From positions 1-22,935 of IMG/VR virus record IMGVR_UViG_3300045970_000701: 22,935 nt of DNA. One strand, given 5' to 3'. The stretch is from a virus. The position numbers were made by a program, and so were the translations under genes. Positions within the stretch are counted from its first letter, which is position 1. Each line of letters begins with the position of its first letter. The notes under the pieces were generated by a model that was given only the letters and a program-made list of their open reading frames with translations, had not been told where the DNA came from and made no database searches. This document shows positions 3,838-20,784 of the stretch, piece by piece.

Positions 3838-5652
3838 ATGGCTAAAGCATCAAAATTTATGAAGTTAAATCCGAACATCTTAATGGAATGGGTGTTTGAT
3901 AGTGAGCATTATGTGAGTGAAAATTATAAAGTTATAACAAATTTGAATGAAAATAAAAAACGTAGTTTTCTATCAACATCTAACCTTAATAATATAAACA
4001 ACAATATATTTCAATTAGATTCTGTATTAAAAAAATACACATTGCCAGATCCTGCAAAATATAATTTTTTACAAGAACAAGATTATAATACTTCTCCAAT
4101 TCAATATGATACTGTTAGAATATATTTGCCTGTTACTTACAATTTTGTTTTTGATGGTTATGTCGGTTTATATTTAAAGATATTCGCATATGGTTTTTAT
4201 AATGATGTTGTTTATGAATTATCTAATATTTTTTTTGATGCAACAAATACTAGTAATTCTGGTTTAACTAATTTAGCAATTCCTTTTTTCTATGATGAAC
4301 AACAATGGGGAAAATATTATCAATTTGATATTCCATCAGTAGATTATGTTTCTAATCAAAGAAGTGGAACAACAACTTTATCTAATTCTATTAACCGTAA
4401 TTTGACAATAGGAGAAGGGTTGAGTCAAACTGGACCAATATTTGTTGATTTTCAATATCTTAACACAAAGGAAGTTGTCATGGGCAACACCTATTATTAT
4501 GCATCTGAAGCATATAGATCATCATTTGCAAAAGCACCAGAATATAATACATTAGGAGTACAAATACAAGAATCAACAGAAGGTGATTTCTTTGAAATAT
4601 TGGGAACTTATGGCGAATCAAATGAAAATTTAGATAATTTTGTTAGAGAACAAGAAAATAAAGGTCGTAAAATAAGAATTGAATATGATATTTATTTATA
4701 TGAAGAAAACATTCAAACAAATATGCAAACAGTTGCAGTTACTGAAGATTTTACAAAAAAGATTTTATATAGACCAATTTTAACTTTTTCAAATACTACC
4801 GCAGCAATTAAAATTACAATGAGAGTTACAGACTTGGTTGATATGAGCACGATTGAAAGATTTACATCAATTGGTTTAGATACCAATATTCAAAAATATG
4901 GCAAAAAACTAATAAGTTTAAATGTTGGAAACATTAATAAACTTAAAATTTATAATGCTAAACCAGATGAAATTGTTTTAGGAAAAGATTATTTTTCTGG
5001 TAATTTAATGACTGAAATTATTAAAGTTAATTCACCTCAGTTAATAGAGGTTGGAAAAATAATTGTTAATAGTCCTTCATCTTCAAAAGATTATAAAGGA
5101 ATGGGATTATTAAATTTAGTTATAACACCATTTGATAATATTATACAATTTAGATTAGCAATAATTCCAAATAATAATTCTGGATCAGGTAATCAAATGG
5201 AACAATATGATTTATCAAAAATATTAAATAATTCTGAAATAAAATTAGAATTTAGGTCTGACACAGAATCTGTTGATAAGTCAATTTATAATGAAGCAGA
5301 TAATGATTATAAAAATGGTATTATAAATTTCAAAATTGTAGAAAATGATCTTCAAGTATTGAAGAAAATATATGATAAAGGATCTACAAATTTTTATTTA
5401 ACAATTACATCCAATAAAGTAAAAACTCTTTTATATTCAGGAACATTTTCTTTTTATACTGATATTACTTTTGTTGATAGTAATATAAATAATATAACCA
5501 ACACAAGTAATAGTACAAGTGATACCATTCAACCACCAAATTCAACACCTACAACAACTAATACCGAATCAACTGTTCAAGAATGGCCAAAGGCTGGTAG
5601 AACAGTCATTATTTATACAAAATATAAAAATACATCAACATCATCAAAATAA
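3838..5652 (+). CDS. large virion structural protein (tail/baseplate region), family not assigned
   Basis: 604 residues, beta-rich, no signal peptide or membrane segment. It opens with KLNPNILMEWVFDSEHYVSENYKV, a lead-in I associate with Bacteroidota phage structural proteins, then long stretches of aromatic and Asn-rich beta strands. The last 60 residues are Asn/Ser/Thr/Pro-rich (about 555-590), probably a flexible linker ending in a short strand. It is the first gene of a plus-strand run (3838-7738) whose other members look like tail or fibre proteins, and it is spaced 9 nt from the next start. Likely a baseplate wedge, tail or virion-surface component; a specific T4 counterpart is not recognisable from sequence alone. 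Confidence 0.6.
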   Translation: MAKASKFMKLNPNILMEWVFDSEHYVSENYKVITNLNENKKRSFLSTSNLNNINNNIFQLDSVLKKYTLPDPAKYNFLQEQDYNTSPIQYDTVRIYLPVTYNFVFDGYVGLYLKIFAYGFYNDVVYELSNIFFDATNTSNSGLTNLAIPFFYDEQQWGKYYQFDIPSVDYVSNQRSGTTTLSNSINRNLTIGEGLSQTGPIFVDFQYLNTKEVVMGNTYYYASEAYRSSFAKAPEYNTLGVQIQESTEGDFFEILGTYGESNENLDNFVREQENKGRKIRIEYDIYLYEENIQTNMQTVAVTEDFTKKILYRPILTFSNTTAAIKITMRVTDLVDMSTIERFTSIGLDTNIQKYGKKLISLNVGNINKLKIYNAKPDEIVLGKDYFSGNLMTEIIKVNSPQLIEVGKIIVNSPSSSKDYKGMGLLNLVITPFDNIIQFRLAIIPNNNSGSGNQMEQYDLSKILNNSEIKLEFRSDTESVDKSIYNEADNDYKNGIINFKIVENDLQVLKKIYDKGSTNFYLTITSNKVKTLLYSGTFSFYTDITFVDSNINNITNTSNSTSDTIQPPNSTPTTTNTESTVQEWPKAGRTVIIYTKYKNTSTSSK

Positions 5653-6800: not shown

Positions 6801-7097
6801 ATGTCAACATCAACACAAAGTCAAGTATTTAGAGATTTAACATATAGTAATGATATTAAAGATCAAATTATTAATAGCGGTGGAACTATAGTTTTCATGA
6901 GGGATAATGTAATAATGGCATCTGAAATATCAGAATCACAATATAGGGCGTTATTAAATAGCCCATATATTGAGAAATTGGATGTTTTACCATTAAAAAG
7001 ATATGGTAATGTTGGAATACAATACACACAAAATACTAATATCGCTGCTGCTCAAGGTAATGCAGAAATATATGCCACAAAAAACTTAATTAAATAA
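6801..7097 (+). CDS. small virion protein, stand-alone I9-like domain
   Basis: 98 residues. Apart from a short tail (GNVGIQYTQNTNIAAAQG) the protein is a single domain aligned with residues 18-82 of the preceding Ig protein: shared DLTYS, GGT, ASxISExxY, P-x-I and LPLKRYG/LALKQYG positions. The I9-like fold is my inference from the pattern (strand, helix, strand with a hydrophobic N-x-I-x-AS segment). No catalytic residues. It sits 14 nt after the Ig-domain gene and its TAA overlaps the ATG of the tail-tube-like gene. A reasonable guess is that it occupies the same virion site as the Ig protein's N domain, giving a bare and an Ig-bearing version. Confidence 0.6.
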   Translation: MSTSTQSQVFRDLTYSNDIKDQIINSGGTIVFMRDNVIMASEISESQYRALLNSPYIEKLDVLPLKRYGNVGIQYTQNTNIAAAQGNAEIYATKNLIK

Positions 7098-7738
7098 TGA
7101 GAATAAGTTCACAAAATAATCAATTTTTATTTCAGTTTCCATCAGACTTTTTAGCAAAAGAAGTTGATGATAGATTAAGAAGATATATGGATAAAAATTG
7201 GATTCCTTATCAAGATCCAATGGCATATATAAATTCTACAATTAAAGAAATTGTTTTTCCTGCTATTTCTTATGAAGGTTCTGAACAAACTCATATGAAA
7301 GGTAAAAAAATAGAATATAAACCATCTATAAATATCTATGATACGTATACGAATTCATTAGATATAACATTAAGAAGTGTTGATTCACATACAAACTATT
7401 TTATGTTACAACAAATTTTTGCAGAATACTATAATAATACAAGAAAATATTATTTACCTTGGCTTAATCTATTTATACTTGATAAAGATGGCGATTTTTT
7501 ATATTCAGTTATTTTTAGAGCACCATTATTAAAATCTTTATCTGAACAAAGATTATCATATCAAAGTATGGATGTTGCTGAACAAACTTTTTCAATTACA
7601 TTTAAATTCAACTTTATGGATGTTTATTGGGAATTGAGTGATAATCCTGAATATAAAAAAGATAATATATTTTACTCACAAACTTGGGATCATTCAGGTG
7701 ATGTTTTACCTACACAAAGACCTCAAAATGAGTATTAA
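7097..7738 (+). CDS. tail-tube-like structural protein
   Basis: 213 residues. A two-layer beta pattern with a central helix is visible: IKEIVFPAISYEGSEQT, then the KPSINIYDTYTNSLDITLRSVDSHTNYFMLQQIF strand-helix unit, a LFILDKDGDFLYSVIF hairpin, and a final SMDVAEQTFSITFKFNFMDVYW strand. This order (strand, D-x-D-G hairpin, 'siSe..lsY.s.d..e.tfsitF.f...d') is that of phage tail-tube/baseplate-tube proteins of the gp19/gp54 superfamily. Starts on the A of the preceding TAA and closes the structural block. Could instead be a tube-fold baseplate or tail-terminator component. Confidence 0.6.
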   Translation: MRISSQNNQFLFQFPSDFLAKEVDDRLRRYMDKNWIPYQDPMAYINSTIKEIVFPAISYEGSEQTHMKGKKIEYKPSINIYDTYTNSLDITLRSVDSHTNYFMLQQIFAEYYNNTRKYYLPWLNLFILDKDGDFLYSVIFRAPLLKSLSEQRLSYQSMDVAEQTFSITFKFNFMDVYWELSDNPEYKKDNIFYSQTWDHSGDVLPTQRPQNEY

Positions 7739-7755: not shown

Positions 7756-7850
7756 TTATTATTTCAAAAATTAAACTTTTATTTAGAATGATCCTATAAC
7801 CATTATAAATAAATTTTTAGTATTAACGTTTAACTTTTTAAGATCAAATT

Positions 7851-8999
7851 ATGATTAAAGAACTCATTGAAGGCAAAAACATAGGTAGCCTTCCAGATCC
7901 ATTTCCATTTTTAACAAATAACAAAATTCCAAAATTTAAGAGTCAAGGCGATGTCTCTAAAGAATATTTGGATATGTATTTACAAATGGAATCATCTTTT
8001 TTAGCACTTAGAGACATCAAAGAAAATGAGGTTGTCACTGGTGTAATTAAAGAAATAAAAGAAAAAGAAATCTTCGTTGATTTCGGCTACAAAGATTATA
8101 TCTATGTAGATAAGCCTAAAAGAAGTACTGTTGGTGTAGAACTACAAATAGGCGAAATAATTGATGTTTTGATTACTGAAATATCAGATAGTCCATTTTA
8201 TATTAAGGGCTCTGTTACAGAATTAATTAAACAAAAGGTTCATAGTAAAATGAAGAATTACTTTGAGAATAACCTTGCATTAACATCTTCAGTTAAATCT
8301 ATGATTCCAGCAGGATATATGATGGATATTCACATGGACAACATCACAGTTGAAGCTTTTATGCCAAATACTTTAGCAGATGTTAACAAGTTAACAGATT
8401 CAAATTCTATTCTTGGTCTAACATTTGAAGTAATGTTAGAAACATTGCAACAAGAAAAAGGTGTATATGTAGTTTCTCGTAGAAAATACTTACAATCACT
8501 AATTCCAGACGAAATTGACAAATTGAAGTATGGTGAAGTTTATACTGGCGAAGTAACTGGCACAACTCCATTTGGTGTATTTGTTCAATTTAGTGCAACT
8601 CCAGGCGGTCCTACTTGCTTAACTGGTATGGTACATAAAGCTAATATTGGTGAAGGCTGGGCTGAAAAATGGAGTCAAATTTTACCTGGTATGCAAATCC
8701 AATTTTATGTAAAAGAAGTTATTAAGAATAACAAAATTATTCTTACACAAATTCTTAAAGAGTCCTTATGGGACACTATTAAAGTTGGTAAAGTTATGAC
8801 TGGTAAGATCAGAGACATCAAAAACTTTGGTGCACTTATTCTTCTTGACGAAGAAACAACAGGTTTGATACAAACTACTTATATCAATAAGTATAGTAAA
8901 AAACTAAATATTGGTGATGAGATAAAAGTAAAAGTTATTTCCTTAATAAGGGATGATAGAAAGATTTATCTTAACTTCGCAGATGGAAGAGAGAAATAA
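7851..8999 (+). CDS. ribosomal protein S1-like protein with four S1 (OB-fold) domains
   Basis: 382 residues. About four S1 repeats: residues 58-122 (VVTGVIKEIKEKEIFVDFGYKDYIYV), a degenerate one at 145-210, 226-300 (GEVYTGEVTGTTPFGVFVQF ... GMVHKANI), and 311-377 (GKVMTGKIRDIKNFGALILLDEETTGLI). The third and fourth have the canonical G-x-V-x-G and FGAL/FGVF signatures of RNA-binding S1 domains. Cellular bS1 has up to six repeats and is longer; this is a compact version that keeps its own N-terminal leader. It is monocistronic, with a 112-nt upstream gap and a strong terminator. Likely binds mRNA or the 30S subunit to favour phage messages, but an RNase- or replication-associated S1 protein (as for Q-beta replicase) is possible. 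Confidence 0.8.
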   Translation: MIKELIEGKNIGSLPDPFPFLTNNKIPKFKSQGDVSKEYLDMYLQMESSFLALRDIKENEVVTGVIKEIKEKEIFVDFGYKDYIYVDKPKRSTVGVELQIGEIIDVLITEISDSPFYIKGSVTELIKQKVHSKMKNYFENNLALTSSVKSMIPAGYMMDIHMDNITVEAFMPNTLADVNKLTDSNSILGLTFEVMLETLQQEKGVYVVSRRKYLQSLIPDEIDKLKYGEVYTGEVTGTTPFGVFVQFSATPGGPTCLTGMVHKANIGEGWAEKWSQILPGMQIQFYVKEVIKNNKIILTQILKESLWDTIKVGKVMTGKIRDIKNFGALILLDEETTGLIQTTYINKYSKKLNIGDEIKVKVISLIRDDRKIYLNFADGREK

Positions 9000-9535: not shown

Positions 9536-10042
9536 TTATTCTTCTTCTTGTTTTACAATTTGTGAAACTGTTAAATCTAACATAGTTTCTCTACCAAAAA
9601 TTAAAACACTAACTTTAACTTTTTGTTTTTCCAAATCTAATTTATCAATTGTGCCAACAAATGAATTAAAAGGTCCATCAATTATTTTAATTTTATCTTT
9701 CAAATGTAGAGTTTCTTCAGTTTCTTTCTTTTCTTTTCGACCTAAAATTCCTTCAATTTCTTTAGAAGTTAAAGGTTGTTTTAATATAGAGGTCACACCA
9801 TTAATATGTTTAACATTAGCTTCAACATCACTTATTGATTCACATTCAACAAAGATATATCCAGGAAATGACTGTTTTTCAACAGAAATTTTCTTTCCAC
9901 GTCTTAATTGTACAGCTTTCTGCGAAGGAACTAACATTTGAGAAATAACACTTTCTGTATTACTCTCTTTTAATTTAATCTCTATCGCTTCTTTCATCTT
10001 TTTTTCCTTACCATTCATCACTTTGATTACATACCATTTCAT
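9536..10042 (-). CDS. nusG: phage-encoded NusG transcription elongation factor
   Basis: 168 residues, near full length for bacterial NusG. NGN domain at 1-105 begins KWYVIKVMNGKE and contains VPSQKAVQLRRGKK and the conserved SFPGYIFVE (residues 58-66) and INGVTSIL segments. KOW domain at 114-164 has the signature KIKIIDGPFNSFVGTIDKLD and IFGRETMLDLTVSQIV. NusG binds RNA polymerase across the cleft and through KOW contacts Rho or ribosomal S10. The order and residues resemble Bacteroidota NusG rather than an RfaH-like paralogue. Promoter-like TATCTTTG lies about 43 nt upstream on the minus strand. After the TAA the same frame stays open for 19 more codons with coding-like composition. Confidence 0.9.
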   Translation of the reverse strand: MKWYVIKVMNGKEKKMKEAIEIKLKESNTESVISQMLVPSQKAVQLRRGKKISVEKQSFPGYIFVECESISDVEANVKHINGVTSILKQPLTSKEIEGILGRKEKKETEETLHLKDKIKIIDGPFNSFVGTIDKLDLEKQKVKVSVLIFGRETMLDLTVSQIVKQEEE

Positions 10043-10156: not shown

Positions 10157-10531
10157 ATGAAATTTGAAGAAATTGTACCAATTGGAAACTTTAAAGATGT
10201 TTTAGAACTTTTTAGAACAAAAGTAGATGAAACTATTTCTAGATGTAACGAAGAAAAGAAATATAATAAAAGTTTAACTAAATGGATAACAACTATTGTC
10301 GGAGATTTTGGCATGATTGATGTGTTGGAAGAAGGCATTCTTAAAAATGATTGCTGGGATATTGAAGAAGCAAAAATTTGCCTATTGTACACACATTTAC
10401 TGATAATTGATTTGAATCAAACTGCTCATACATATCTTAATAATATCACAGAATGGAATTCTCGAAAAGACCAATTACAAGAAATGATTGATTCCAGAGA
10501 AGACATTTTTAATGGACTTAAATTATCTTAA
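10157..10531 (+). CDS. unknown helical protein
   Basis: 124 residues, predicted mostly alpha-helical (KFEEIVPIGNFKDVLELFRTKVDETI, then TKWITTIVGDFGMIDVLEEGIL and a long final helix). Three Cys residues are scattered without a metal-binding pattern. It is expressed from a host-type promoter and ends 10 nt before the radical SAM start, so the two are probably co-transcribed. No family recognised; a helper or substrate of the radical SAM enzyme is possible only from position. Confidence 0.65.
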   Translation: MKFEEIVPIGNFKDVLELFRTKVDETISRCNEEKKYNKSLTKWITTIVGDFGMIDVLEEGILKNDCWDIEEAKICLLYTHLLIIDLNQTAHTYLNNITEWNSRKDQLQEMIDSREDIFNGLKLS

Positions 10532-10541
10532 AAAAATCAAT

Positions 10542-11480
10542 ATGAAAATCCAAAGTTTATCAATTTCAGTTCCTACAAAAAACAAATGTGTAAACGCTTG
10601 TAAATTTTGTGTAAGCCGTACACATACAAATCCTTATGAGGATAAAATCAGTTCAGTTGTAACTGCACCACCAATCAACAAAGAATGGTTGAAAATTGAA
10701 CCAAAACATAGACCAAGTCAAATGTCTACTAAAGATTTAATTGAATATAAAGATTATTTCAATAGACTTCAGTTTGCCCGTGATAATGGTTGTAATGTTA
10801 TTGTTTTGACTGGAACTGGTGAACCAATTCAAAATTTAAAATTCCTTAGATTTTTCTCCGAAATAAATTCAACTCTTACCACACCGTTCAAAAGCATTGA
10901 AATGCAAACAACTGGTGTTATGTTGAATGATGAAAATCTTTTGGAATTAAGACAACTTGGTGTTACTACAATTTCATTTTCTATTTCAAACCTTTTTAAT
11001 AATGAAAGGAATCTTGAACTTATTTCTTGTAAAGAAAAATTGAAATTTAATGTATTTGAAACAATTAAACTTGCCAAAAAACATGATTTCAATTTGAGAT
11101 TATCATTAAATCTTGTAAATGATTATGATATTTATGAAGTTAAGGAAGTTATTTCAAGATGTAAGGAATTGGGTGCTGATCAAGTAACATTCAGAAAACT
11201 TTACAAATCTAATCTTAATGGAGAAATTGATCAATGGATTGAAGACAATGCTTCTGTAAGTTTTTACAATAAACTTATTACTTATGTACAAAATAATGGT
11301 AAATTTTTGGGTGTTCTTCCTTTTGGACCGAGTATTTATGATATTGATGAAATGTCAATGGTTGTTGATGATGATTGTATGAGTGAAAAAGTTGATAAAG
11401 ATACTTATAAATATTTGGTTCTTAGAGAGAACTGTAAATTATATTCACACTGGGAAACAAAAGCCAGTTTAATATTTTAA
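10542..11480 (+). CDS. radical SAM enzyme, substrate unknown
   Basis: 312 residues from the ATG at 10542; I prefer this start to an in-frame ATG at 10488 because the longer form would overlap the preceding gene by 44 nt and the strand MKIQSLSISVPTKNKC is the natural first strand. The cluster motif is C-x3-C-x2-C (C16, C20, C23 in CVNACKFC), binding the 4Fe-4S that cleaves S-adenosylmethionine. VLTGTGEP at residues 88-95 is the GGEP-like SAM-amine-binding motif. A TIM-barrel-like alternation follows (LRQLGVTTISFSISNLF, LRLSLNLVNDYD, ADQVTFRKLYKS). No C-terminal SPASM cysteine cluster is visible. Family members do tRNA or cofactor modification, peptide modification or nucleotide chemistry (viperin); the cluster sequence does not match viperin closely. 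Followed by a strong terminator. Confidence 0.8.
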   Translation: MKIQSLSISVPTKNKCVNACKFCVSRTHTNPYEDKISSVVTAPPINKEWLKIEPKHRPSQMSTKDLIEYKDYFNRLQFARDNGCNVIVLTGTGEPIQNLKFLRFFSEINSTLTTPFKSIEMQTTGVMLNDENLLELRQLGVTTISFSISNLFNNERNLELISCKEKLKFNVFETIKLAKKHDFNLRLSLNLVNDYDIYEVKEVISRCKELGADQVTFRKLYKSNLNGEIDQWIEDNASVSFYNKLITYVQNNGKFLGVLPFGPSIYDIDEMSMVVDDDCMSEKVDKDTYKYLVLRENCKLYSHWETKASLIF

Positions 11481-12021: not shown

Positions 12022-12696
12022 ATGGAAAAGATATTTCACATACCACACAGTTCAACTTATATACCAGTAGAGTATATAAATGAGTATTCATTATCAATTG
12101 AAAAATTGATGAATGAAGCTTCTATTATGTGTGATTTTAGAACAAATGAAATGATTGATGGCTTAGTTTTTCCATATTCTAGAATATTTTGCGACGTTGA
12201 AAGATTTAATTCTGATAAAGAAATAATGAATAGTGTTGGTATGGGCGTATTATATACTAAAACTCAAGACCAAAAAATTTTAAGGGAAAATCCTTCAAAA
12301 GAAATTTTAAATTTTTACAGAGAACATCACAAAAAATTTAATGATCTTGTTGCTGAAAAATTGAAAATAGATAATGTTTTAATTGTTGATTTACATTCTT
12401 ATTCAAAAGACCCATTAGAATATGAATTAAATAAAGAAATGAAAAGACCAGAAATATGTATTGGTCTGAATAAAAGATTTAATGAAAAATTGGTTGAAGA
12501 ATTAATATATATAATAAAGAATTTCAATTATACTTTTGCTATAAATGAGCCATTTTCAGGATGTTTGATACCTTCTGATTATATTAATGATGAAAGAGTT
12601 AATGGTATTATGATTGAAATAAGAAAAGATGTATATGATACATCAGAAAAATTTGAAAAAATAAAAAATTTCTTAAAATGTATAAAAGAAATCTAA
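12022..12696 (+). CDS. N-formylglutamate amidohydrolase family protein
   Basis: 224 residues. The family's conserved blocks are all present: HIPHSS at 6-11, the DVERF segment at 58-62 following PYSRIFC, DLHSY at 123-127, and IEIRKDVY at 198-205. Family enzymes (HutG-like) are metal-dependent and release formate from N-formylglutamate at the end of histidine breakdown, related in fold to zinc carboxypeptidases. No other histidine-degradation gene is nearby, so in a phage the substrate is probably different (another N-acyl amino acid or a peptide-like cell component). Transcript is predicted to be almost leaderless, and the gene overlaps the next start by 19 nt. Confidence 0.85.
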   Translation: MEKIFHIPHSSTYIPVEYINEYSLSIEKLMNEASIMCDFRTNEMIDGLVFPYSRIFCDVERFNSDKEIMNSVGMGVLYTKTQDQKILRENPSKEILNFYREHHKKFNDLVAEKLKIDNVLIVDLHSYSKDPLEYELNKEMKRPEICIGLNKRFNEKLVEELIYIIKNFNYTFAINEPFSGCLIPSDYINDERVNGIMIEIRKDVYDTSEKFEKIKNFLKCIKEI

Positions 12697-14735: not shown

Positions 14736-15320
14736 ATGGCAAAACTTTTCTTCAGGTATTCAACAATGAATGCTGGCAAATCAATCGACTTAATCAAAAC
14801 AAATTTTAACTATTTTGAAAACGATAGAAAAACTTTATGCTTCACATCTGCAAAAGATAATAGATATGGTGAAGGTAAAATAACATCAAGAATTGGACTA
14901 TCAGTTGATGCAATTTCTGTTTTTGATGATACAAATATATTTGATGTTGTTTATAAATATATTATTAATAATGAACAAATATATTGTGTTTTTGTAGATG
15001 AATCGCAATTTTTAAATAAAAATCAGGTTTTCCAACTTGCAGATATTGTAGATGGGTTAGATATTCCAGTAATTTGTTATGGACTTAGAACAGATTTTGT
15101 TATGGAAATGTTCGAAGGATCTAAATATTTAATGGCTATTGCTGACAGTATAGAAGAAATTAAGACTATTTGCTTTGAGTGTAAAACTAAAAAGGCAATA
15201 ATAAATGCAAGAATAACTGATGGTAAAATAGTTACAGAAGGTGATCAAGTTATGATTGGTGGAAATGATACTTATAAACCTCTTTGTAGAAAGTGTTATA
15301 AAAAGTTAAAGAATGTTTAA
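14736..15320 (+). CDS. tdk: thymidine kinase, type II
   Basis: 194 residues, normal length for the TK1-like family that phosphorylates thymidine with ATP to feed dTTP synthesis. Seen: P-loop STMNAGKS at 9-16, Walker B/catalytic FVDESQF at 86-92, the YGLRTDF lasso start at 115-121, and a structural zinc site of four Cys (C146, C149, C184, C187). The substrate-backbone loop near residue 175-182 (IGGNDTYKPLC) is the usual IGG-x(n)-Y. Nucleotide-salvage enzymes are standard for large phages and fit the NMP-kinase-like gene at 2624. Its stop lies 16 nt before the most likely start of the histidine kinase. Confidence 0.93.
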   Translation: MAKLFFRYSTMNAGKSIDLIKTNFNYFENDRKTLCFTSAKDNRYGEGKITSRIGLSVDAISVFDDTNIFDVVYKYIINNEQIYCVFVDESQFLNKNQVFQLADIVDGLDIPVICYGLRTDFVMEMFEGSKYLMAIADSIEEIKTICFECKTKKAIINARITDGKIVTEGDQVMIGGNDTYKPLCRKCYKKLKNV

Positions 15321-15322
15321 TT

Positions 15323-15330
15323 TATATATA
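15323..15330 (+). promoter_or_regulatory. candidate TATATA promoter box
   Basis: TATATATAGGTTTAATG, box ending 6 nt before the ATG at 15337; argues for 15337 rather than 15313 as start of the kinase gene. Confidence 0.35.
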
Positions 15331-15336
15331 GGTTTA

Positions 15337-15522
15337 ATGGAAATGATACATCATAAAAAAGCAGAGCATATAAAAGAACTAGTCAATCAATTAATTGAGG
15401 CTAGTAAAGAATTAGCATTTCAAAATGAAGAGAAAGAAAAACGTGCAAATGAATTAATTGTTGCCAATGAAGAATTAGCTTATCAGAATGAAGAGAAGAG
15501 TAAGAGAGCAGATGAATTATAA
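15337..15522 (+). pseudogene. N-terminal fragment of the hybrid histidine kinase (frameshifted)
   Basis: Reads MEMIHHKKAEHIKELVNQL, then one and a half copies of the 21-residue coiled-coil repeat (KELAFQNEEKEKRANELIVAN, EELAYQNEEKSKRADEL) and stops at TAA 15520-15522. The stop arises because the second repeat lacks 11 nt compared with every other copy; without the deletion the frame would run straight into the kinase. An in-frame ATG at 15313 overlaps tdk by 8 nt and seems less likely. As it stands this fragment would be a short coiled coil, or a leader whose translation feeds the downstream frame through ATGs at 15488 and 15512. Confidence 0.7.
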
Positions 15523-15898
15523 AGAATTAGCTTATCAGAATGAGGAAAAAGGACATAGGGCAGATGAATTAATTATTGCCAATAAAGAATTATCTTATCA
15601 GAATGAAGAGAAGAGTAAGAGAGCAGATGAATTAATTATTGCCAATGAAGAATTAGCTTATCAGAATGAAGAGAAGAGTAAGAGAGCAGATGAATTAATT
15701 ATTGCTAATAAAGAATTAGCTTATCAGAATGAGGAAAAAGGACATAGGGCAGATGAATTAATTATTGCCAATAAAGAATTAGCTTATCAGAATGAGGAAA
15801 AAGGACATAGGGCAGATGAATTAATTATTGCTAATAAAGAATTAGCTTATCAGAATGAGGAAAAAGGACATAGGGCAGATGAATTAATTATTGCCAAT
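15406..15898 (+). repeat. 63-bp tandem repeat array encoding 21-residue coiled-coil units
   Basis: Eight units beginning at 15406, 15469, 15521, 15584, 15647, 15710, 15773 and 15836, with a degenerate ninth at 15899. Each codes for K/E-ELAYQNEEK-xx-RADELIIAN, three heptads. Two DNA variants alternate: one with GGACATAGG (protein GHR) and one with AGTAAGAGA (SKR). Units 5-7 are identical except for one silent C/T. Unit 2 is 52 bp (11-nt deletion). Such ANKELAFQNEEKEKRAAEL arrays are known in bacterial sensor kinases and cyclases. Confidence 0.95.
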
Positions 15899-17743
15899 AA
15901 AGAATTGATAGTTCAAAGTAAAGAAAAAGTAAAATTGGCAGAAGAACTTATAAATTCTCAGAAAAATGCGGAAATTGCTAATGAGTTCAATAAAAATTTA
16001 TTACAAACTATCCCATTTTATATGGATATTATAGATAAAAATGGTACAATATTATTTTCAAACAAATTATTAAAAGATAACGTTGGTGATGTTATTGGTA
16101 AAAAATGTTGGAATGTTCATCGTGATGATAAGAAACAATGTGTAGATTGTCCATTATATTCAGAAATTGAAATTGGTAAAACAAAAAAGATAGAATCAAG
16201 TGGAGTTTATGGCGGAAAAATTTTTGAAATAAGTCACACAGGAATAATGTTTAATGGAGAAAAATCTATATTAGAAATATTTCAAGATATTACAGATAGA
16301 AAGCAATCAGAAAATAGATTAGCAAGAGCAGAAATAATTTCTAAAACAGGTAATTGGGAACTTTATATTGATAATCTAACAATGATAGCATCAGATGGTG
16401 CAAAAGAAATATATGGTATAAAAGATAAATTAGAAGAACTTAAATATTTAGAAATAAAAAAATATGTATTATCTGAATATAGACCAATGATGGATGATGC
16501 ATTAAAAAATTTAATTGATTATAATAAACCTTATAATGTTGAGTATAAAATATTAACAGGCGACAATGAAATTAAAAATATTCATTCAATTGCAAATTAT
16601 GATAATATAAATAAAATTGTATTTGGAGTACTTCAAGATGTTACAATTCAAAAGAAAAATGAGGAAGCATTAGAAAAAAGCAATGCTATAAAATCTATTT
16701 TCTTATCAAATATTTCACATGAATTAAGAACTCCTATGACTGCAATTATTGGCTATTCAGATTTAATATTATCAAATAATAAAGATAAAGATAGAGATAG
16801 GTTTTTAAAATCTATTAATTCAAACGCTAAACATTTAGATGAATTGTTAAATAATATATTAGATTATTCAAAAATAGAGAGTGATACATTAGATATTTTA
16901 TATGAGGATTTTTCAATCTTAGATTTATTTGAAGAACTAAGTGATATATTTGAAGATGAGAATTATAAAAAAAATTTAGATTTTGTTAAATTAGAATTTA
17001 GTAAAAAAAATTATAAAATAACATCTGATTATTTAAGATTAAAACAAGTATTATATAATATAATTAGTAATTCTATTAAATTTACTGAAAATGGATATAT
17101 TAAAGTTTCATTTGTTTCAGATAAAAACTTTGTAACATTTAAAATAGAAGATACAGGAATTGGAATTCAAAAAGATAAATTACCATTAGTTTTTGATAGA
17201 TTTTGGCAATGTGATAGCACCAGTAAGAAAAAATATAAAGGAACAGGTCTTGGATTATCTATATCCAAAAGTATTGTTGAAATTTTAAATGGACAGATAT
17301 GGCTTGAATCAGAATTAAATGTAGGAACAACATTTTATGTTAAAATACCAATAGAAGAACAAAAATTAAAAATTATTAAAATTGAACCAGATTTTCCAGG
17401 CAAAACTATTTTAGTAATAGATGATGTACCAATAACATATTCTATATTAGGTATTTATTTAAATTCTTTACATATTAATATAATATCTTCTACTGGTGGT
17501 AAAGAATCAATTGAAATTTATAAAAAACAAAAAGAAAAAATTGATCTAATAATATTAGATTTAAATTTATTTGATATGAGTAGTTTTGAATTAATAAAAA
17601 CTATGAAAGAAATATGTGATTGTAAAATTATTTCCAAATCAGGTATTGAAAATCAAAAAAATGAATTGGTTGATTATCACTTGAAAAAACCAATAAATAA
17701 AAATATATTAGTTTCAATATTTAATGAAATATGGCAAAAGTAG
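15488..17743 (+). CDS. hybrid histidine kinase (coiled coil-PAS-PAS-HisKA-HATPase-REC)
   Basis: Main frame, up to 751 residues; the first 10 come from an out-of-frame read of the deleted repeat unit, and ATG 15512 is an alternative start that overlaps the upstream stop. Order: repeats to ~140; PAS with a cysteine cluster (KKCWNVHRDDKKQCVDCPL, 205-223); second PAS ~281-388; HisKA with SNISHELRTPM (His411); HATPase with N-box IISNSIKF (~525-532), DTGIGI (555-560), FDRFW and GTGLGLSI (585-592); receiver domain 638-750 with DD645-646, phospho-acceptor Asp691 and Lys733. All catalytic residues look intact, so kinase, ATP binding and receiver could work; there is no transmembrane segment, hence a cytosolic sensor. 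A hybrid kinase on a phage is unusual and may be host-derived. Overlaps the next gene by 13 nt. Confidence 0.85.
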   Translation: MKRRVREQMNYKELAYQNEEKGHRADELIIANKELSYQNEEKSKRADELIIANEELAYQNEEKSKRADELIIANKELAYQNEEKGHRADELIIANKELAYQNEEKGHRADELIIANKELAYQNEEKGHRADELIIANKELIVQSKEKVKLAEELINSQKNAEIANEFNKNLLQTIPFYMDIIDKNGTILFSNKLLKDNVGDVIGKKCWNVHRDDKKQCVDCPLYSEIEIGKTKKIESSGVYGGKIFEISHTGIMFNGEKSILEIFQDITDRKQSENRLARAEIISKTGNWELYIDNLTMIASDGAKEIYGIKDKLEELKYLEIKKYVLSEYRPMMDDALKNLIDYNKPYNVEYKILTGDNEIKNIHSIANYDNINKIVFGVLQDVTIQKKNEEALEKSNAIKSIFLSNISHELRTPMTAIIGYSDLILSNNKDKDRDRFLKSINSNAKHLDELLNNILDYSKIESDTLDILYEDFSILDLFEELSDIFEDENYKKNLDFVKLEFSKKNYKITSDYLRLKQVLYNIISNSIKFTENGYIKVSFVSDKNFVTFKIEDTGIGIQKDKLPLVFDRFWQCDSTSKKKYKGTGLGLSISKSIVEILNGQIWLESELNVGTTFYVKIPIEEQKLKIIKIEPDFPGKTILVIDDVPITYSILGIYLNSLHINIISSTGGKESIEIYKKQKEKIDLIILDLNLFDMSSFELIKTMKEICDCKIISKSGIENQKNELVDYHLKKPINKNILVSIFNEIWQK

Positions 17744-19156: not shown

Positions 19157-19585
19157 GTGATCACTAAATTTAAATTATTTGAATCTGAAGAAAAAGAAAT
19201 CTCATTTATTTTAAATGATATTATTGATTATTTTGATAATCGTCAAGGTTATATAAATAGTTTTATATCAAGTCTATGTAATAATCGTGATATTATTGTA
19301 AAAATAAATTGTAAAAATTGCACACATTATAATGAATATGGTGCGGATGAATATTTTCATTCAAATAAAGTACATAAAGGCAAAATAAATGGATATGGTT
19401 TAGGTTCCAGTACTGACGATGGTAAAAAAAGATTACATTTAACACTTTATTTGAAAAGAATAAAATATAAACATGAAGTAGATACAAGTAAACCAATTAC
19501 AATATATGGTGAAATTTCACCAAGTTTACAAGAAACAATTAATAATATTAATGCAAAAAGAACATCAATAAAATATAATATATGA
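19157..19585 (+). CDS. unknown protein with capsid-targeting-like N terminus (GTG start)
   Basis: 142 residues from GTG 19157, giving MITKFKLFESEE. An upstream ATG at 19145 would add four residues (MCIF), but the DNA from 19157 matches the start of the genes at 20781 and 21098 at 24 of 27 bases, which argues for GTG. Behind the leader peptide come a helix (SFILNDIIDYFDN), a C-x-x-C pair (INCKNCTHY), a Gly-rich loop (NGYGLGSSTDDGKK) and a beta hairpin with LHLTLYLKRIKYK; it ends KYNI like its neighbours. No enzyme motif recognised. Adjacent genes share the same peptide, so it is probably another packaged internal protein. Confidence 0.6.
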   Translation: MITKFKLFESEEKEISFILNDIIDYFDNRQGYINSFISSLCNNRDIIVKINCKNCTHYNEYGADEYFHSNKVHKGKINGYGLGSSTDDGKKRLHLTLYLKRIKYKHEVDTSKPITIYGEISPSLQETINNINAKRTSIKYNI

Positions 19586-20784
19586 TAACAAGATTTATAA
19601 AATTTATTACAGAAAAAAACATACCTATCAAGTTAACCCTACCTGATGATATTTATCAAATCAAAAAAGAGTTTGATAAAGCAGGTAAAAAACTATATGT
19701 TGTAGGCGGAGCTGTTAGAGACTTCTATCAAAAAGTAAATCCACATGATATTGACTTAGTTACAGATGCTCAACCTGAAGAATCTAAAAAAATTCTGAAA
19801 GGTAAATTTAATGTGTCAGACGAACAAGGAAAGAATTTTGGTGTATTAAGAATTTATACCAAAGATGAACCTTTAGGCTATGAACTTGCAACATTCAGAA
19901 AAGACATTTCAAAAGGTCGTGACAATAAAGGTGATGCGCCAAAAGTAGAAATTGGAAAACACATTACAATTGAAGATGATGTTAAAAGACGTGATTTAAC
20001 TCAAAATGCTCTTTTTTATGATATTGATAAAGAAGAAATTGTAGATTTGGTTGGTGGTATAGAAGATATTGATAGAAATGTCATATCTGCTGTTGGGGAG
20101 GCTTCTGAGAGGTTCTTAGAGGATAGACTAAGGATTTTAAGGACATTTAGATTCGCTTCAAGGAATCACTCTGAAATAAGTAAGAATACTATTGATGCTA
20201 TTATGAAAGATAAGAGATTGAGAAATATTTCACCTATTGATGATGTATCACAAGAGAGAATTGTTGAAGAATTTCAAAAATCTGTCGATTGGGCATTAGA
20301 TCATAATAAAATTGAAGCGTTACAATATTATTTAGAACTACTTGATAAGTATGGAATGTTTGAAGAAATGTTTCCAGAGTTGGATATTAATATCGAAGGT
20401 ATAGATACATTTAATTTAGGTGTAATATTTACTTTGTTATTTAGAGATAATACAATTGAAACATTAAAAATAAAATTAAAAAAATGTAAGTTTCCAAATA
20501 TACTTGCTGATACTGTATGCTTTTTATTAAGATTAAAAAATGAAATTAAAAATGTAAATAATATACCAGCTCTTTATAAAGAAAAAGTTAGAATACATCT
20601 TGTCAATGATACAATAGAAGAATTTGCTGATTTGTATGATTTTAATGATAATTATTTACAAGCATTTTTGAATTTTCAACCTAAAATTGATACTGCAAAA
20701 ATTATAGCTCTTGGCTTCAAAGGACCAGAAATTAGAGCTGAAGTTATAAAGAAAGAAATTGAAGAGTTTAAGAAATTATTATGA
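19582..20784 (+). CDS. cca: CCA-adding enzyme / tRNA nucleotidyltransferase, class II, with capsid-targeting-like N terminus
   Basis: 400 residues, full length for the class II family that adds or repairs the 3' CCA of tRNA. Motif A: YVVGGAVRDF at 39-48 with catalytic carboxylates Asp56 and Asp58 in HDIDLVTD. Motif C/D region: RRDLTQNALFYD (136-147) and EDRLRILRTFRFASR (180-194), whose Arg residues set nucleotide choice. Body and tail domain follow. In front lies MITRFIKFITE-KN, almost a copy of the T4 IPI leader (MKTYQEFITE), so cleavage after Glu11 would leave an intact catalytic core starting before the first helix. Starts by ATGA overlap and ends by ATGA overlap in the peptide-bearing cluster. 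No tRNA gene is in the window. Poly(A) polymerase activity is an alternative. Confidence 0.9.
   Translation: MITRFIKFITEKNIPIKLTLPDDIYQIKKEFDKAGKKLYVVGGAVRDFYQKVNPHDIDLVTDAQPEESKKILKGKFNVSDEQGKNFGVLRIYTKDEPLGYELATFRKDISKGRDNKGDAPKVEIGKHITIEDDVKRRDLTQNALFYDIDKEEIVDLVGGIEDIDRNVISAVGEASERFLEDRLRILRTFRFASRNHSEISKNTIDAIMKDKRLRNISPIDDVSQERIVEEFQKSVDWALDHNKIEALQYYLELLDKYGMFEEMFPELDINIEGIDTFNLGVIFTLLFRDNTIETLKIKLKKCKFPNILADTVCFLLRLKNEIKNVNNIPALYKEKVRIHLVNDTIEEFADLYDFNDNYLQAFLNFQPKIDTAKIIALGFKGPEIRAEVIKKEIEEFKKLL

Follow-up and report, generated by a model that had tools for sequence, protein, structure and literature searches.

Ribosomal protein S1 (rpS1) was reported in 2020 from huge phages with few Shine-Dalgarno (SD) sites and was predicted to act in translation initiation, with the reservation that a true rpS1 is hard to confirm in such phages (Al-Shayeb et al., PMC7162821). 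A shortened bS1 of 359 aa is encoded by Microcystis phage PhiMa05, where it is described as derived from a Vampirovibrio-like host (PMC13157829). Bacteroidetes phages encode bS21, likewise a protein of the 30S mRNA exit, from a gene lying amid structural genes and with a proposed late role (PMC9723584). The cellular bS1 of Bacteroidota has six S1 domains (PMC6705787). In E. coli, Lys43 of bS1 enters the zinc pocket of uS2 (PMC10123108), and bS1 hands nascent mRNA to the 30S subunit (Webster et al., as described in PMC12820379). In the start regions of F. johnsoniae, A is over-represented from -14 to -11 and acts as a positive determinant at -3, -6, -12 and -13 (PMC6847099); bS1 has been proposed as the reader of the upstream A block (PMC6847099; also PMC3155529), with D4 located around nt -12 to -15 when an E. 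coli structure is superposed (PMC6847099). In F. johnsoniae, one SD-less mRNA was initiated twice as well when bS1 was added, and initiation on rpsU mRNA hardly responded (PMC9976891).

Here we describe an S1 gene in a 22,935-nt viral DNA (IMG/VR record IMGVR_UViG_3300045970_000701, positions 1 to 22,935), the whole of which is called the window. Its product shares with the huge-phage rpS1 the S1-domain make-up, the SD-poor huge phages and the predicted initiation role (PMC7162821). A homologue in LR756501.1 (735,411 bases) has 45% identity over 100% of the query, and others are in LR745206.1, LR756502.1 and LR756504.1; these four appear to be genomes of the Al-Shayeb study. The occurrence of rpS1 in huge phages, and its association with absent SD sites, were thus known before. 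New here are the evidence for bS1 ancestry over D1-D4, the family anatomy and the gene position; the parts of PMC7162821 consulted do not describe gene position, N-terminal motif or start pattern. Among the literature matches listed, judged by titles and abstract starts in a collection with few subscription journals or preprints, there was no publication on the anatomy, gene position or start pattern of the phage S1 family.

Domain anatomy and likeness to bS1

The S1 gene is real and under purifying selection: in comparison with its eight clade relatives, dN/dS is 0.046-0.162 in seven pairs, and dS is saturated in the eighth (L022). The gene and the parts of its product are as follows.

7851..8999, + strand: phage bS1-like protein, 382 aa, with four S1/OB domains (ATG-start ORF, profile matches, predicted structure)
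7851..7958, + strand: N-terminal tail, residues 1-36, containing PDPFPFL, at the place of F[DN]W in Bacteroidota-type bS1 and some phage homologues; mostly low confidence in the model
7959..8000, + strand: helix 37-50 ahead of D1, where bS1 has its uS2-binding helix; the exact register of residues is uncertain (alignment, model)
8016..8225, + strand: D1, residues about 56-125; Lys81 stands where E. coli bS1 has Lys43 (Pfam, alignment, model)
8280..8486, + strand: D2, residues about 144-212, with an AFMPNT signature; Phe170 corresponds to E. coli Phe130, Tyr156 to Phe120 and Pro153 to Lys117 (alignment)
8523..8750, + strand: D3, residues about 225-300, with the full RNA-binding set Phe241, Phe244 and His262 (Pfam, alignment)
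8784..8984, + strand: D4, residues about 312-378, partly degenerate, with Phe326, Leu329 and Gln341 (Pfam, alignment)

Pfam S1 (PF00575) hits the protein in three stretches (68.7 bits, E 5.9e-19); D2 is detected only with bS1 profiles and in the predicted structure. NCBIfam bS1 models span most of the protein in a single stretch (PRK00087, residues 49-375, E 2.1e-35; TIGR00717, 51-375, E 2e-31). The curated bS1 equivalog cut-offs are not reached (TIGR00717, 109.1 versus 577 bits; PRK06676, 95.3 versus 368; PRK00087, 122.1 versus 624). Against solved structures, the single window sequence aligns to E. coli bS1 over residues 53-376 (E 5.9e-18), and a profile from 13 phage S1s is collinear with the same protein (46-373 to 7-345, E 5.2e-48). 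Searches of Pfam and NCBIfam matched no catalytic domain, and PHROGs gave no structural-protein family, with one weak match of unknown function (E 0.021).

Structure prediction, which the earlier note had proposed as a check, was run with AlphaFold2 on an alignment of 69 proteins (the window and fetched loci) and gave four OB-like folds and the helix 37-50 before D1 (mean pLDDT 78.8, pTM 0.57). Among the Foldseek matches listed, the closest were bS1 on the E. coli 30S subunit (9gut_B, '30S mRNA delivery complex', E 3.1e-24; 9guv_B, 1.2e-20). VIA-align 2 gave Z 14.7 for 9gut_B (317 aligned, rmsd 9.9) and Z 14.5 for 9guq_B (168 aligned, rmsd 5.6); the high rmsd across four domains would be consistent with flexible links between the domains.

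The residues by which E. coli bS1 contacts the ribosome (PMC10123108) were located in an alignment that joins 77 non-redundant phage S1s with 15 bS1-type proteins. The Lys43 column holds K in 62, R in 11 and another residue in four of the 77. In OB2, the Phe130 column is Phe in all 77; the Phe120 column is Tyr in 66 and Phe in 11, and Met in 5/5 Bacteroidota-type bS1s; the Lys117 column is Pro in 58 and Lys in only three. Alignment pairs the uS2 helix residues Phe5 and Phe9 with Tyr39 and Tyr43 of the window protein (Y in 56/77 at the Phe9 column), while superposition of the structures gives another register. Trp307 in the D3-D4 linker is near-invariant in phage S1s and aligns with the PW linker of bS1.

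The aromatic and His positions of D3 and D4 are presumably RNA-binding sites, from general knowledge of S1 domains. In D3 they are almost fixed among the 77 (Tyr205 column: F 71, Y 5, S 1; Phe208: F 77; His219: H 67), and in D4 they vary (Tyr290: F 53, Y 19; Phe293: L 54, F 19; His305: H 48, Q 20). The F-L-Q triplet of the window lacks two of the three D4 residues, which makes this domain probably a weaker RNA binder, and both Lak homologues examined have no D4 at all. D1 and D2 align as counterparts of the docking and exit-channel domains of bS1. Of the 'four RNA-binding repeats' seen by the earlier note, the four S1/OB domains are there, and D3 alone has the full aromatic/His set. Mean pairwise identity is 0.20 for the N-terminus, 0.30 for D1 (among the least conserved parts) and 0.57 for D3, the most conserved.

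On this alignment evidence the protein is a bS1 derivative over D1-D4 and not a generic S1 protein. It shares with bS1 of E. coli and Bacteroidota the D1-D4 order, the D2 signature, the linker Trp, the uS2-docking Lys and the D3 RNA-binding set, and differs in its size (382 aa in four domains, against about 590 aa in six for Bacteroidota), its sub-threshold scores, its separate long-branch clade and the loss of OB2 Lys117. Taken singly, its domains, and D4 most of all, look like the S1 domains found in PNPase and RNase R. The whole protein does not fit the non-ribosomal S1 proteins GSP13/CvfD, PNPase and RNase R, which have one S1 domain with or without a catalytic one: it has several S1 domains and no catalytic match in Pfam or NCBIfam, and curated cut-offs are unreached.

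The phage S1 family and its origin

An alignment scan of IMG/VR found 202 encoding stretches, from which 80 loci were kept. In the GenBank phage collection, S1 homologues were found in six 'uncultured phage' records of 462-735 kb (two of equal length) and in 15 Lak records. Ninety phage S1s (from the window, the kept loci, five LR and two of the 15 Lak records, and two MAG contigs) were reduced to 77 at 95% identity, and all neighbour tables refer to these 77 loci. Matches labelled Acinetobacter, Listeria, Enterococcus, Staphylococcus, Escherichia and faecal 'Bacteriophage sp.' were excluded as probable bacterial DNA, gene order having been checked for Acinetobacter only: CAKLQH020000011.1 (L017), whose record name is Acinetobacter phage MD-2021a, shows the gene order cmk-rpsA-himD and has the look of bacterial DNA deposited under a phage name.

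A quick tree, with long branches, puts all 77 phage S1s in one clade with support 100, apart from the 15 bS1-type rows and from the PhiMa05 bS1 (L114), which, on a long branch, groups with the cellular rows and not with the window family. By this phylogeny the window protein belongs to a monophyletic, divergent phage family of which the Lak S1s are distant members. Two of its S1s were taken from MAG contigs that carry the labels Erysipelotrichaceae and Clostridium; both lie within the clade, the Clostridium one next to Lak, and the contigs are therefore read as probable phage contigs binned with bacteria.

The phylogeny against bS1 that the earlier note had suggested gives the phage clade no single sister group. 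Approximately unbiased (AU) tests on a 28-row tree rejected none of the groupings in which the phage rows were held with Bacteroidota (p 0.358), Proteobacteria (0.194) or Neochlamydia (0.306). Neither the full tree nor the 28-row tree placed the phage family within Bacteroidota bS1; in the best 28-row tree the 'Fir' rows are nearest, with weak support (77/73). These rows (L095-L098) come from unannotated faecal 'phage' records and owe their label to a domain layout that we take to be of that type. The best single bS1 found by phmmer from D1 onward was Bacteroidota-type for 38 of the phage S1s, from Proteobacteria for 24, Neochlamydia for eight and 'Fir' for seven; PDB 9zcd was counted as Bacteroidota-type as it grouped with Bacteroidota rows in the tree.

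The N-terminus gives a further clue. An F[DN]WxxF element lies roughly 30 residues ahead of D1 in 5/5 Bacteroidota-type bS1s, and an element of this type is found in 0/10 other bS1-type rows, the stretch before D1 in two IspH-fused rows included. The form F[DNE]Wxx[FYL] occurs in 14 of the 77 phage S1s, on several separate branches and in the two Lak rows (11 if the last letter must be F or Y), against a mean of 0.04 and a maximum of two in 1000 shuffles; the looser F[DN]W occurs in 15. It is absent from the window protein, and the corresponding residues in its clade, PDPFPFL, PDPFPEL or PDIFPFL, may be a worn form of the element. No study of the element was seen among the literature matches listed, judged by title or abstract start. 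As the AU tests reject no group, a Bacteroidota origin of the phage S1 family is suggested mainly by this motif.

Gene surroundings and start regions

Four further features surround the gene.

3838..5652, + strand: gene of the same block, of an unnamed family present in 16/76 other S1 loci (neighbour comparison)
7097..7738, + strand: contractile-tail tube-fold protein, 213 aa, directly upstream of S1 (predicted fold)
7772..7779, + strand: TAAACTTT box, found 56-81 nt upstream of the S1 start codon both in the window and in eight close relatives (leader alignment of six loci, position counts)
9536..10042, - strand: phage NusG paralogue, downstream of S1 (profile matches, neighbour comparison)

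The model of the 7097-7738 protein (pLDDT 70.4, pTM 0.61) resembles T4-type tail tube and baseplate tube proteins (9f4a_BQ, Z 11.2, 154 aligned, rmsd 4.4; 9mkb_AC, Z 10.8, 150 aligned, rmsd 3.9). Its family is found in 24/77 loci, one gene upstream of S1 in ten and two upstream in nine. Group C comprises 17 loci, 16 of which have, two genes upstream of S1, a member of a baseplate spike family (Phage_base_V, PHROG baseplate, a naming based on the single member L073), and families named baseplate wedge on one or two representatives lie downstream. Group A has a small protein of about 130 aa (e.g. L034 9335-9736); its gene occurs in 37 loci, and in 34 of them S1 is the next gene downstream. The L034 protein, the only member tested, has a UvrB/C (UVR) motif, and no named family was found for the larger genes beyond. 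Eight loci have both the tube gene and the small protein, and in four (L013, L045, L059, L064) the tube gene is followed by the small protein and then by S1, an arrangement that links groups A and B. Four of the 77 loci (L015, L016, L092, L093) have no marker neighbour family. Conservation beside the tail module, which the earlier note had thought worth looking for, therefore extends to most loci in two of three neighbour groups, the third having unnamed neighbours. S1 here runs in the direction of the tail block, a difference from phage bS21, a distinct protein reported on the opposite strand (PMC9723584). L022 has an inverted tail block from which S1 is separated, so the operon linkage is not absolute.

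The TAAACTTT box precedes S1 in 9/9 window-clade loci and 13/217 other genes of the clade. In group A the counts are 13/31 and 15/508, in group C 0/17 precede S1, and among the rest 2/20. Searched across the window as a 14-mer with two mismatches, it is no commoner than in shuffles (8 versus a mean of 6.82), so the claim for it rests on position before S1. It is a possible promoter element, and its placement suggests that S1 may have its own promoter and not mere read-through. The box also precedes some other window-clade genes, by eye often with a TATA-like stretch some 15 bases later, and the combination could be a phage promoter class. Rfam found nothing in the window at gathering thresholds.

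In the window and in its eight close relatives, the gene for NusG follows S1 on the other strand; according to the neighbour tables of the 77 loci, NusG beside S1 is not conserved outside this clade. Of 12 large records with S1 that were examined, NusG is present in seven, bS21 in eight, and all three together in six (four LR, two IMG/VR). No bS21 match was found in either Lak record, in LR756500 or in one IMG/VR record. The link between S1 and NusG drawn by the earlier note is thus a weak one.

Some other genes may be mentioned. Near NusG, 10530-11480 encodes a Radical SAM protein (PF04055, 42.2 bits), and 12022-12696 a protein of the N-formylglutamate amidohydrolase family (PF05013, 109.7 bits) with a BLAST relative in 1/76 other S1 loci. 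The 15313-17743 region contains a 751-aa ORF, presumably hybrid histidine kinase-like, with many NEEKxxRADELIIANKELAYQ units arranged head to tail; the repeats are spread over two overlapping frames (15313-15522, 15488-17743). The 19582-20784 product we take to be a CCA-adding/poly(A) polymerase-like nucleotidyltransferase, another possible RNA/tRNA function. In the huge phages W01, W03, W04 and G003-G006, another ORF, roughly 600-700 aa long, contains a single S1 domain and is possibly phage RNase or PNPase-like.

SD sites were counted as SD 4-mers at -20 to -5, with one ORF-calling pipeline for all genomes. Their near-absence, reported by the earlier note, is borne out: 1/25 window genes and 3/184 in the window and its eight relatives have one, versus 27/46 in a T4 stretch; the counts are 5/313 in group A and 14/286 in group C. 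In crAss001, a Bacteroides phage, 10/39 genes have one; this rate of 0.26 compares with 0.23 for the upstream control from the same phage and 0.11 for shuffles, so there is no clear SD enrichment; crAss001 gave no S1 match in the GenBank phage collection search or in the examined half of its genome. Because this phage, with no S1 match, also shows no clear SD enrichment, missing SD sites look like a host trait and do not suffice by themselves as the argument for an S1 role that the earlier note had made of them.

Start regions of the window clade (n=184) are rich in A from -19 to -10 (z up to +6.7) and at -3 (z +6.6), those of group C have an A peak at -14 to -11 (z about 6 to 7), and crAss001 has A at -13 and -12 too. 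A at -6 is not enriched in the window clade, group A or group C. SD-less and A-rich like those of F. johnsoniae, these start regions point to a Bacteroidota-type host for the phages. The A-rich pattern is probably a host trait, and host phylum may lie behind the correlation that has been published between phage rpS1 and a lack of SD sites.

Proposed role in translation and its alternatives

The reading that we favour, with reasonable though far from full confidence, is that the protein is a phage bS1 cut to D1-D4, which would bind the host 30S subunit and feed it SD-less phage mRNA. D1, with the N-terminal element and Lys81, would dock on uS2, and D2 would sit at the mRNA exit; D3, and D4 less so, would grip the A-rich stretch upstream of phage start codons. 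The phage S1 would join host ribosomes or compete there with host bS1, and initiation on phage mRNA would be raised in a Bacteroidota-type cell, where SD pairing is not used. The step that sequence supports is bS1-like docking with single-stranded RNA binding. We infer ribosome binding, preference for phage mRNA and timing, and take the action of bS1 in F. johnsoniae and E. coli as the likely action of the phage protein on phage mRNA; that it displaces host bS1, acts late or is selective is guesswork. In favour of this reading are the collinear match and the fold likeness to bS1, the conserved docking and D3 residues, the N-terminal motif in 14 of the 77, the A-rich start regions, the effect of added bS1 in F. 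johnsoniae and the bS21 genes in eight of the 12 large records. Against this reading stand the low bS1 scores, the poor conservation of the N-terminus and D1 (the presumed anchor), the lack of F[DN]W in the window, the loss of Lys117, the degenerate D4 and its absence from the two Lak homologues examined, the slight response of rpsU mRNA to bS1 in F. johnsoniae, a tree that does not put the family within Bacteroidota bS1, and the probable host origin of the A-rich start regions.

A host shut-off factor would dock on uS2, take the place of host bS1 and reduce the translation of host messages without itself favouring phage mRNA. Some features would suit it: the anchor residue is retained, D5-D6 are absent, D4 is degenerate in the window and missing in the two Lak homologues examined. 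We consider such a shut-off unlikely, as a pure blocker would not need the near-invariant RNA-binding set of D3, the most conserved domain, and phage mRNA, with its Bacteroidota-like start regions, would be harmed too. Conservation of D3 would also serve an S1 working off the ribosome with the transcription machinery or NusG, and the presence of NusG in seven of the 12 large records and the ability of bS1 to contact the transcription complex and pass on nascent mRNA (PMC12820379) lend this a small measure of credit. There is, however, no obvious reason why the Lys43 equivalent and the D2 signature would then persist, and NusG keeps its place beside S1 in the window clade only.

The position close behind a tail-tube-fold gene, or in group C between baseplate spike and wedge genes (named on one or two representatives), could instead mean a virion or tail-assembly protein, perhaps injected. 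This seems quite improbable: the protein has no PHROGs structural family and no virion protein among its best 50 Foldseek matches, and phage bS21 genes, which also lie among structural genes, are nevertheless read as late translation factors (PMC9723584). A partner of an RNA decay or replication complex, comparable to the S1 domains in PNPase, RNase R and Qbeta replicase, was the other role raised by the earlier note. The likeness of single domains, chiefly D4, to PNPase and RNase R speaks for it; no catalytic domain was matched in Pfam or NCBIfam and the full-length matches are to bS1, and we reject this role as very improbable. Of the two roles that the note had offered, recruitment of 30S subunits to SD-less messages is the better supported, as a prediction.

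A wider picture can be drawn tentatively, and we would not lean on it: large Bacteroidota phages might rebuild the mRNA-exit face of the 30S subunit with a four-domain bS1, often together with a phage bS21, yielding a phage-specialised ribosome that chooses late transcripts by an A-rich leader and not by SD, with S1 placed in the tail and baseplate region to time the switch with virion protein synthesis.

For the window family, the doubt whether huge-phage S1s are true bS1 relatives is answered. That bS1 reads the A-rich leader is a standing idea for SD-less Bacteroidota, and a direct test was called for in 2019 (PMC6847099). A phage S1 that keeps just D1-D4 and serves SD-less, A-rich messages would be a natural deletion test of it: if the four-domain protein suffices on a Bacteroidota 30S subunit, the role of D4 would be separable from that of D5-D6.
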